Part shown: positions 3,483 to 44,691 of the stretch, one piece after another
Layout: every line of letters starts with the position of its first letter
Numbering within the stretch: position 1 is the first letter of the stretch
NCBI GenBank assembly: GCA_009602725.1
Contig: WELB01000282.1
Coordinates: forward strand, 101,425-146,115
Origin: Spirogloea muscicola
Taxonomy: Eukaryota > Streptophyta > Zygnematophyceae > Spirogloeales > Spirogloeaceae
DNA length: 44,691 nucleotides
Direction: 5' to 3'
Notes under the pieces: model-generated
The model's database searches: none
The model's input: the letters and a program-made list of their open reading frames with translations, nothing else
What the model was told of the DNA's origin: nothing
Made by a program: the position numbers and the translations under genes

Positions 3483-3690
3483 CGACCGCGCTTTGGCGGC
3501 GGCGCTTTGGCGGCCTCCGGATTCCATCAGGGCGACGTCTTTCCGCCAGCGAGCTATTACGACTTGCACCTTCTGACTCGAGGTTACTGAGCGTCCCCTT
3601 GCTGATGTCTTAGTCCTTAGCACTCCGGCTCTTTAAGACCTTGTGCATTCCTTTGGGCTGGCCTCTCCTAGCCACCAGTTGATGTGGCTG
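3483..3690 (+). mobile_element. LINE 3' end, tandem to the previous copy
   Basis: This second copy directly follows the tail of the first, head-to-tail. The frame ends YYDLHLLTRGY with TGA at 3588-3590. The hairpin gggctggcctctcctagcc lies near 3655-3673 in a degraded form. Confidence 0.7.
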
Positions 3691-3954
3691 CGGCTTCTTT
3701 TATCTCGACACCTTGTGCAGTATCCATTGAAAGCTAGCGGCTTGGCCGCTTGGATTCTCATGTCTGCCAGATTCACAGCCCAGAATAGGTTTTCAACGCA
3801 TTCCATCGGGGGCGCCAAGAAGGCAATCGAATAGTCCCTAGGCCTTCGGCAGGGCGGAGGGAGTCCAGCAGGCAATGGACCGCAGGAGCTGCTTCTCTGG
3901 AGCTGCTTCTTTCTCTTCTATGACGACGAGCCACATCACTGGCAGGCTATCATG

Positions 3955-4085
3955 CTGTTTGGGGAAAGCGCGGCCACATTGACTGGTGGCTGTGAGAGGG
4001 CATCCCAGAGGAATGGACAAGGTCCGAAGGAGCCGGATGGAGCAGAAAGCAAGGTGCGAAGTGCCAAGACGGCAGGAAGGCGTGA
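3955..4085 (-). mobile_element. LINE 3'UTR tail
   Basis: A minus-strand tail of the '...ccggctccttcggaccttgtccattcctctgggatg...' type with a decayed hairpin. It ends about 75 bases before the start of the SUI1 gene, so it may sit in that gene's promoter or 5'UTR. Confidence 0.6.
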
Positions 4086-12194: not shown

Positions 12195-12765
12195 CAGCCC
12201 AACGAGACTGTTCCAGTCGATGCCTATGACCGCTCACACCCAGCCAAATGTGCCACCACGGCTGGGTATGCGGTCGCCTGCGCTGCTCGGGCCAAAGAGC
12301 TGAAGTACGCGGATCATCCGCGGGAAGACGAGTTCTTCCCGTTGGCCATCGACACACATGGGGCGCTGGGCGCTCGGTGGCTCGAGCTGCTCACCCAGCT
12401 CGCCCGCCACACCATCGCCCGGCGCTTCCATGGGGAGCCGGTTGACTTCCCTGCAGCCGGGTCGCTGGCGCAAGTGTATCGAATGCGCCTGGCCGTCTCG
12501 CTGCAGAGGTCCATGGCCCGGGCGCTGCACCTTCGTGCCGGCAGAGCCCTCGCTGCTGCCTCTGGCTCTGGCCAGGGGACCCACTTCCAGGAGCCCAGCA
12601 TCTCTGATCTGCGGCTGCTTAGCAGGGGTTACTGAGTGTCTCGTAGCAGCTTTGTTTCTGTTACTTAGCGCTTCCCCTGGCCCCCTTCTCGTACTCTGTT
12701 CATTCTTTTTCGGGCTGGTTATTCCAGCCCCTATTCTCAATGGGCGAGCACTTTCTTCTCCAGTC
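12195..12765 (+). mobile_element. LINE C-terminal domain plus 3'UTR
   Basis: One open frame runs from about 12195 to the TGA at 12633-12635: VDAYDRSHPAKCATTAGYAV, ARAKELKYADHP, FFPLAIDTHGALGARWLELL, then SLAQVYRMRLAVSLQRSMAR and finally LRLLSRGY. This order (Asp-containing strand, Lys-Tyr helix, 'F.PLA...G', helical C-terminus) fits the end of an RLE-type LINE protein. The 3'UTR hairpin is at 12714-12732 and the tail ends near 12765. It is the longest intact 3' end in the window and serves as reference for the others. Confidence 0.75.
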
Positions 12766-32840: not shown

Positions 32841-33130
32841 ATCCTGCTTCTTGCGCCATCCGGCCCTTTCAGACCTTGTCCATTCCTTTCGCGCTCCAGC
32901 TCCCCAAGTTAGCTTGTCAGATTTGTTTGTGCTCACCCGTGGGTACTAATGTCATCTTAGGTACCTTAGATTAGGTCTCCGTATTATGTAGCATTGTTTA
33001 GTCTGCACTCGACTCTGCCTGAACAATGTATTGGCTTGAATTGGCCTCCCTTTCAATTCATGCGCCCCGCGCGCCTTCTCTCTTTTGGGCTGGCCTCTCA
33101 CAGCCATTGCTGTCACTTTGCAAGAGCTGT
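32840..33130 (+). mobile_element. Chimeric LINE 3' end (tail joined to subfamily A)
   Basis: A 3'UTR segment (ccggccctttcagaccttgtccattcc) breaks off before its hairpin and joins a subfamily-A end (SLSDLFVLTRGY, stop near 32946), its long 3'UTR and a hairpin at about 33088-33108. It is nearly identical to 43494-43690 over about 190 bases. Confidence 0.7.
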
Positions 33131-38514: not shown

Positions 38515-38760
38515 GCATGCGTTTGTCTATGTCCCTCCAGCGCTCCCAAGCGCTTGCTTTGCACCGCCGCGCGGGTCGCGCCCTTGCAGCACCCCTGGCT
38601 TGCGGAGCGGGGTTGCTCTTCCTCCCCCGAGCTCATCTCACTTCCTACTGCTGACCCGGGGGTACTAAGAGCGCCCTGTCTGCCTAGCCAGTGGCTCCTT
38701 CATGAACACTGCATGCATCTGGCTGCTTTCACAGCCGCTCTTTAAATGCAAGCAGCCGCA
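38515..38760 (+). mobile_element. LINE 3' end, subfamily C
   Basis: The frame reads RSQALALHRRAGRALA and, after a shift, SSHFLLLTRGY with TAA at 38666-38668. The 3'UTR has the subfamily-C segment (tgcatctggctgctttcacagcc) with its hairpin near 38720-38740. Confidence 0.65.
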
Positions 38761-43059: not shown

Positions 43060-43372
43060 GCTAGCAGGAAGCGAGGCCCCAAGGAACTCACCGCAACAAC
43101 CGCGTAGTCCCCGCAGACGGCAGGCTGCAATGTCATTCAACAACCGGGATCACCGTCGCTCGACCGGCTCACCTCGAATAATGCCTCTCGCCCAGGCCTT
43201 GTATCTGCGTGCTGGCCGCGCTCTGCTAAGCAAGTGCTCGCCCATTGAGACTGCGGGGCTGGAAAAACCAGCCCGAAAAAGAATGAACAGAATACGAGAG
43301 GGGGGCCAGGGGAAGCGCTAAGAAACAGAAACAAAGCAGCTACGAATCACTCAGTAACCTCTGCCGGGATGT
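43060..43372. mobile_element. LINE C-terminal piece (+) and opposed LINE tail (-)
   Basis: A plus piece (MPLAQALYLRAGRALLS, to about 43222) meets a full minus tail. Read on the minus strand, the latter has a stop context near 43360, the 3'UTR, hairpin GGGCTGG...CCAGCCC at about 43272-43254 and the tail end at about 43230. Confidence 0.65.
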
Positions 43373-43493
43373 CATCGCTGAGGAGCTGAGGGCGGCCTTC
43401 CCCAGCCTCCTCCCCTTCTTCAGGCTGGGATATGGTCAGCCAAGCGACCTGCTGTGGCGGACAGGGCATGGGGCGGTGGAAGTCCTCCTTTCC

Positions 43494-43690
43494 GGCGGCG
43501 CTCCAGCTCCCCAAGTTAGCTTGTCAGATTTGTTTGTGCTCACCCGTGGGTACTAATGTCATCTTAGGTACCTTAGATTAGGTCTCCGTATTATGTAGCA
43601 TTGTTTAGTCTGCACTCGACTCTGCCTGAACAATGTATTGGCTTGAATTGGCCTCCCTTTCAATTCATGCGCCCCGCGCGCCTTCTCTCT
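43494..43690 (+). mobile_element. Subfamily-A LINE 3' end inserted in the reverse transcriptase
   Basis: Carries SLSDLFVLTRGY-stop and the long subfamily-A 3'UTR up to the pyrimidine end. It follows ctttcc (43488-43493) and precedes another ctttcc at 43691. Nearly identical to 32886-33085. Confidence 0.75.
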
Positions 43691-43698
43691 CTTTCCTC

Positions 43699-43985
43699 GA
43701 AGTGTATCGAATGCGCCTGGCCGTCTCGCTGCAGAGGTCCATGGCCCGGGCGCTGCACCTTCGTGCCGGCAGAGCCCTCGCTGCTGCCTCTGGCTCTGGC
43801 CAGGGGACCCACTTCCAGGAGCCCAGCATCTCTGATCTGCGGCTGCTTAGCAGGGGTTTCTGAGTGTCTCGTAGCAGCTTTGTTTCTGTTACTTAGCGCT
43901 TCCCCTGGCCCCCTTCTCGTACTCTGTTCATTCTTTTTCGGGCTGGTTGTTCCAGCCCCTATTCTCAATGGGCGAGCACTTTCTT
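43699..43985 (+). mobile_element. LINE 3' end inserted beside the previous one
   Basis: Begins at aagtgtatcg, an internal point of the copy at 12481, and runs through the C-terminus (stop now preceded by TTC instead of TAC) and the hairpin at about 43940-43958 to the tail. The 8-bp ctttcctc is on both sides (43691-43698 and 43986-43993). Confidence 0.8.
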
Positions 43986-44211
43986 CTTTCCTCCACGGGC
44001 GCACGCCAAGGAGATCCGCTGGCTGGCCTCAACTACGCACTGGCTCACAACAGTGCACTGCTGGCCACGGTCGCGGCTCACCCGGGCGTCCACGCCCCCA
44101 CGTACGCCGACGATACAACGCTGGTGGGGCCGCCAGAGGACGTCGTGGCAGCCTTTGACACCTTCAAAGTGCAGCTGGCTTCGGCTTGGGCATCCGCGCA
44201 GCCAAGTGCAG

Positions 44212-44289
44212 TGGCCCTCTTTGTTCTTTGTTCATTCTTTTTTGGGCTGGCTTGTCCAGCCCCTATCCTCAATGGGCGAGCCCTTTCTT
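44212..44289 (+). mobile_element. 78-bp LINE-tail insertion
   Basis: Only the 3'UTR end: gggctgg-cttgt-ccagccc hairpin at about 44244-44262, and 'ctcaatgggcgagccctttcttc'-type tail. It is flanked by the 9-bp duplication caagtgcag (44203-44211 and 44290-44298). Confidence 0.85.
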
Positions 44290-44456
44290 CAAGTGCAGCG
44301 CTTGGTCTCCCCAGGGCCTGCCAGCCCTCCTGCACCTGCCCTCGGGCTGTCAGACACCAGCTGGGGGCTTTATCCTCCTCGGCGCCCCCATAGGCTCCCC
44401 AGCCTTTGTGGTGGAGCAGCTCCAGGCTCGACTGCAGGAGCACCTCCGGCCGGCGG

Positions 44457-44643
44457 GTGGGACCCACTTCCAGGAGCCCAGCATCTCTGATCTGCGGCTG
44501 CTTAGCAGGGGTTACTGAGTGTCTCGTAGCAGCTTTGTTTCTGTTACTTAGCGCTTCCCCTGGCCCCCTTCTCGTACTCTGTTCATTCTTTTTCGGGCTG
44601 GTTGTTCCAGCCCCTATTCTCAATGGGCGAGCACTTTCTTCTT
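44457..44643 (+). mobile_element. 187-bp LINE-tail insertion
   Basis: Contains the last 17 codons of the LINE protein (from THFQEPSISDLRLLSRGY), the 3'UTR and hairpin, ending gcactttcttctt. The 8-bp gccggcgg flanks it (44449-44456 and 44644-44651). Confidence 0.85.
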
Positions 44644-44691
44644 GCCGGCGGACCGCCTCCACATGCTGCAAGACATGCAGCTGGCGACCGC

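Follow-up and report, generated by a model that had tools for sequence, protein, structure and literature searches.

A 78-bp insert in a Spirogloea muscicola reverse-transcriptase gene, read as a severely 5'-truncated LINE copy

Background

Does a very short LINE insert indicate that a very short RNA was enough to be copied? The question is raised by 78 bp that interrupt a reverse-transcriptase gene in the genome of Spirogloea muscicola, within a stretch of 44,691 nucleotides (hereafter the window; contig WELB01000282.1, positions 101,425 to 146,115) whose initial annotation took the insert for little more than the hairpin and tail of a LINE 3' untranslated region (UTR) and suggested that this end may suffice for copying. 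Copies of LINEs truncated at the 5' end are known from human L1 and zebrafish L2/Nimb, where the length of the target-site duplication depends on the element (PMC4245944).

Insertion into a relic reverse-transcriptase gene

The 78 bp (44212-44289 of the window, on the forward strand like the other features described here unless stated) lie within a LINE reverse-transcriptase gene, bracketed by perfect 9-bp repeats, CAAGTGCAG, at 44203-44211 and 44290-44298; coordinates, repeats and intervening length are exactly those first annotated. A search with the joined flanks returned 244 candidates, of which 40 were scored, and all 40 cross the joint without the 78-bp gap. In the best six of these (L082-L087, 96% identity) CAAGTGCAG occurs singly and the joined form, CAAGTGCAGCGCTTGG, is found once in each. 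Removal of the insert and one repeat had been predicted to rejoin Lys-Cys-Ser, and the open reading frames (ORFs) through the joint indeed read AAKCSAWSP in five of the six paralogues (L083-L087), no frame of this kind being given at the joint of L082. In an alignment with the full-length paralogue L092, host positions 3575-3807 correspond to 43983-44211 and host positions 3799-3965 to 44290-44456, so that the two host halves overlap by exactly 9 bp. The uninterrupted paralogues and this overlap together establish that an insertion took place, the empty sites being paralogous and not allelic. A coincidental 9-bp repeat in DNA present from the start, or a segmental duplication of a pre-existing site, would be in keeping with a similar 9-mer, AAGTGCAGC, that lies in the host gene 45 bp before the insert; however, the six paralogues are uninterrupted at the exact joint, which rules out the chance repeat and leaves this explanation as a whole with a negligible probability.

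The host is itself the relic of another LINE's reverse-transcriptase gene (43364-44691), 96-100% identical to L092 and preserved in four blocks (43364-43493, 43983-44211, 44290-44456 and 44644-44691) with LINE tails between them. The window copy differs from its paralogues just upstream of the joint in a way that alters the frame, and was therefore decayed irrespective of the insert. The first interruption (43494-43984) is a composite of a tail from another LINE family (approximately 43494-43698) followed by a 286-bp tail of family A2 (43699-43984, with repeats TCTTTCCTC), while the third, a 187-bp family-A2 tail at 44457-44643, is flanked by an 8-bp duplication, GCCGGCGG (44449-44456 and 44644-44651). 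With the 78 bp between them, these amount to at least three insertion events in about 550 bp of host sequence, for which the overlaps against the intact L092 are 9 bp (with one mismatch), 9 bp and 8 bp, respectively. A further tail lies in reverse orientation just upstream of the host (43255-43364), and the window contains additional LINE tails of this kind.

A dispersed, high-copy LINE family

Over its full 78 bp the insert matches the 3' terminus of a LINE family, here called A, in its CCCTCTTTG variant. The exact 78-mer was found at five places, the window included, among the 40 scored of 1,053 candidates, and the other four (L002-L005) all run on upstream into family sequence. The insert closes with the terminal tail of the family (44263-44289, ending in CAATGGGCGAGCCCTTTCTT), and its last 34 nt occur at 1,563 places (780 + 783) with at most one mismatch, compared to none for a reversed control. 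In longer copies of the family a reading frame ends in SDLRLLSRGY and a stop codon and is followed by the same 3' UTR and tail; the frame at L090 matches the reverse-transcriptase family RVT_1 (E 1.8e-13). Several relatives at about 91% identity retain open frames of more than 1,300 aa (stop to stop), which makes it plausible that enzymes able to act on such tails exist. Among the titles listed in literature searches on such LINEs in green algae, none names this family.

Since SINEs that share a LINE tail are known in Chlamydomonas (PMC3747384), the insert might instead belong to a SINE or other non-autonomous element that borrowed the tail. The resemblance to the RandI/Dualen and SINEX elements of that alga extends to green-lineage LINEs with 3' repeats other than poly(A), one SINEX ending in (CTTT)n. 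However, the match of the whole 78 bp to the LINE 3' end and the continuation of the four identical 78-mers into family sequence both speak against a borrowed tail. Moreover, unlike in Chlamydomonas, no tail-sharing SINE was found among the 59 copies compared (58 sampled and the window copy): their upstream flanks show no clear fusion to a fixed non-LINE 5' region, and likeness across the junction is seen in just three pairs, formed by three copies (L037, L046 and L053), which we read as insertion beside the tail of another family. We consider a SINE origin very improbable. At these three loci the tail adjoins or sits within another LINE family's tail. The search with the RVT_1 family also brought up identical polyprotein pieces (protease-RT-RNase H-integrase) at L013, L014 and L018, which we take to be Gypsy-like.

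Distribution of 5' ends and target-site duplications

We read the flanks of the 100 listed exact matches to the 34-mer, of the 1,563 places, on contigs C1-C15, three of these loci having come from the 78-mer search. Anchoring on exact 34-mers means that the sample consists of copies of at least 34 nt with little divergence and that their common 3' end is a product of selection; we placed the 5' ends by anchored alignment, with an accuracy of about 10 nt. Copy lengths start at about 36 nt and extend past the stretch read, with a median of 153 nt over all 100 copies; the 5' end is measurable in 93, the seven that reach the limit of the stretch being left out of the duplication count. In four copies (L029, L054, L073 and L098) long runs of N lie upstream, and the 5' ends may be cut by gaps. 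In the combined count N never matches and the reference set is partly different, whereas earlier counts let N match N; the recount shifted five copies by more than 10 nt (L032, L052, L054, L073 and L098), raised n from 92 to 93 and left the observed duplication counts unchanged.

Repeats of at least 6 bp are present at the estimated 5' end in 44 of the 93 copies, compared to 5.9 expected from swapped 3' flanks, and repeats of at least 8 bp in 20, compared to 0.63 (every copy served as donor in the combined count, every third copy in earlier ones). The remaining 49 have no 6-bp repeat, and it is not possible to distinguish among decay, blunt joining and a wrongly placed 5' end as the cause, since the ends are placed to within about 10 nt and the flanks are often themselves LINE tails. 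The sites into which copies are inserted are many and differ from one another. The base following TTTCTT is C in 67 of the 100 listed copies, and the first C of the right-hand repeat at our locus could thus be derived from the element; CTT follows in 21 of the 100, and base pairing between the end of the RNA and the target may account for this pattern. We also looked for duplications of the sort left by chimaeric inserts: a distant upstream match of at least 9 bp occurs in five of 59 copies against 1.2 expected, a small excess comprising the window's own host 9-mer, L046 (14 bp, in nested tails), L051, L063 and L075.

A short insert flanked by a direct repeat of target DNA could also be the remnant of a DNA transposon or a MITE. 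Terminal inverted repeats are nevertheless lacking, as first noted (a search for inverted repeats of at least 12 bp joining the insert ends found none), the 5' ends vary from copy to copy, and the direct repeats, in the 32 copies where they reach at least 7 bp, range from 7 to 15 bp, so that an origin of this kind is exceedingly unlikely. 5' ends that vary while the 3' end is shared, together with duplications, instead characterise target-primed reverse transcription with an early stop (compare PMC4245944). With a probability of roughly 0.94, we therefore regard the 78 bp as the 3' end of a non-LTR LINE that is dispersed and present in high copy number, truncated at its 5' end and placed by target-primed reverse transcription with a 9-bp duplication. 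A severely truncated copy made in this way had been proposed from the window alone, and the variable 5' ends, the duplications, the absence of terminal inverted repeats, the empty paralogous sites and the longer relatives that carry a reverse transcriptase all uphold it.

Among these 5' truncations, 78 bp is a single value out of many: the ends scatter, other copies do not all extend upstream in the same way, and 22 of the 93 measurable copies are shorter. We considered a special length class at 78 bp and rejected it; the excess is mild, and weak in the second batch of copies. The densest bin, 72-84 nt, holds 10 of the 93 ends (0.83 per bp, compared to 0.50 and 0.31 in the adjoining bins), of which seven fall among the 58 of the first batch and three among the 35 of the second; the window copy, set to 78 by hand in the first batch (n = 59), is absent from the combined 93. 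The narrower interval of 76-80 nt holds 5 of these 93. In the first batch with the window copy included, 7 of 59 ends lie at 73-78, and in the second 2 of 39 lie at 72-80 and 3 of 39 at 60-71.

The hairpin and the length of the template

The insert contains a potential hairpin, GGGCTGG-CTTGT-CCAGCCC (44244-44262). To call it hairpin-only, as in the initial annotation, is loose: it is a LINE 3' end, as was said, but the 19-nt hairpin makes up a quarter of it, 32 nt preceding the hairpin and 27 nt following it. The core of the stem, GGCTG/CAGCC (GGCUG/CAGCC in the RNA), is fully pairable in 11 of 14 distinct related tails, a count that says nothing on generality because the 14 were chosen by hand for having such a hairpin, and other families with no such hairpin by eye (for example those ending in SLSDLFVLTRGY or DLYVLTRGY) were left out. 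No stem pair has both sides changed in the 15 rows representing these 14 tails. The minimum-energy fold predicted for the RNA of the insert itself is a rival pairing rather than the hairpin; in the 80-nt tail of L041 the hairpin appears in the predicted centroid and is absent from the minimum-energy fold, and for L092 and L093 the predicted fold of the tail encloses it in an outer helix, the support for which is not above that of shuffled sequences. The tail resembles those of the stringent-type elements UnaL2 and ZfL2 (PMC4176376) in having a possible short 3' stem-loop followed by a short CT-rich tail, and differs from them in that compensatory changes are absent and the structure is putative. 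By analogy with UnaL2-type tails, the enzyme may recognise the hairpin (PMC4176376).

Several LINE families share a C-terminal motif resembling DLxLL(S/T)RGY before the stop codon, with examples in the window at 12472-12760, 32879-33086 and 38608-38670. There are 69 matches to it in the window and the loci together, many from copies of a single family, and some but not all of the families with the motif carry a comparable short hairpin in their 3' UTR.

A short RNA of hairpin and tail could itself have been the template, the tail then being a minimal self-sufficient substrate. Both the 22 of 93 copies below 78 nt and the 10 ends in the 72-84 nt bin are compatible with this proposal; against it, the 5' ends are spread rather than fixed, the excess in the bin comes mainly from the first batch (7/58, compared to 3/35), the 59 copies compared revealed no common non-LINE 5' part, and copies without half of the hairpin in their DNA look no different from the rest. 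Among the copies below 46 nt in the first batch, several have the 5' arm of the hairpin partly or wholly missing and still carry repeats: L078 (35 bp, with the 10-bp repeat TTTGTACTTG), L019 (39 bp, CATGAG), L063 (42 bp, GGGAGT) and L060 (43 bp, CTGTTGG). Since L078, L019 and L063 keep duplications with an incomplete 5' arm, the length of the DNA is silent on what is required of the RNA. That so short an end may suffice for copying does not follow from the insert, because truncation in the DNA marks where synthesis or joining stopped and not how long the RNA was. We think it improbable that the template was so short, and give as little credence to the broader proposal that the last 40-80 nt of the LINE RNA are self-sufficient and that short tail RNAs were copied, so that many of the 1,563 tails would have begun as minimal retroposons.

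The preferred course of events, target-primed reverse transcription of a LINE RNA, would begin with the LINE enzyme nicking the host gene at CAAGTGCAG, presumably followed by reverse transcription primed at the 3' end of the RNA. The cDNA would then have stopped, or been joined, after 78 nt, and repair of the second strand would have duplicated the 9 bp. We infer an RNA template that probably exceeded 78 nt by far.

The LINE protein

L092 and L093 each have a single long ORF, of 1,130 aa and 1,338 aa (both stop to stop), and these match RVT_1 with E-values of 2e-11 and 3.3e-16, respectively. A C2H2-like finger match at the N-terminus of L093 (E 0.087) is below the Pfam cut-off, and none was seen in L092. 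The Cys/His motif, read by eye, has the spacing CX1CX12HX3C and not the CX2-3CX7-8HX4C published for the CCHC knuckle of R2-type elements (PMC5678591). A search of the PDB with a single sequence gave nothing at E 1, whereas the only matches of a three-sequence profile at that threshold were two R2 proteins (E 0.0034 and 0.0044). The C-terminal region (261 aa) had no match of note in sequence searches; its model, with the order helix, three strands, helix, strand, is weak at a pLDDT of 44.5, and that of the whole ORF has a pLDDT of 33.6. The best Foldseek match to the weak C-terminal model is R2Tg (9dou; E 2.9e-3, TM 0.26), which may be meaningless; two more R2 chains stand at ranks 7 and 11 with unrelated folds between, and no match reaches E 0.001.

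The LINE shares with R2-type LINEs (PMC5678591, PMC4640811) a single ORF, a possible finger-like motif, a reverse transcriptase, a Cys/His motif and a C-terminal domain, and differs from them in that its copies are dispersed instead of site-specific, the Cys/His spacing deviates and the endonuclease is putative. Because of the dispersed copies and the deviating spacing, we have not filed it as R2. Dualen of Chlamydomonas reportedly carries both kinds of endonuclease (PMC4640811), whereas the ORFs here have no match to an apurinic-type endonuclease in Pfam at E 1. The likeness to human L1 and zebrafish L2/Nimb (PMC4245944) lies in the variable 5' truncation and the target-site duplications; by comparison, the present case concerns a dispersed family in a photosynthetic eukaryote, with one long ORF, a weak likeness to R2 and many very short copies. 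Consistent with photosynthesis, the chlorophyll-binding family gave 68 matches.

Conclusion

The 78-bp insert is an ordinary truncated LINE copy, and a clean example in having empty paralogous sites. As a single case it alters no view of the LINE mechanism. The family to which it belongs, with 1,563 tails of which some are nested in other LINEs, would be convenient for studying what determines where the 5' stop falls and which stretch of the 3' end serves for recognition.
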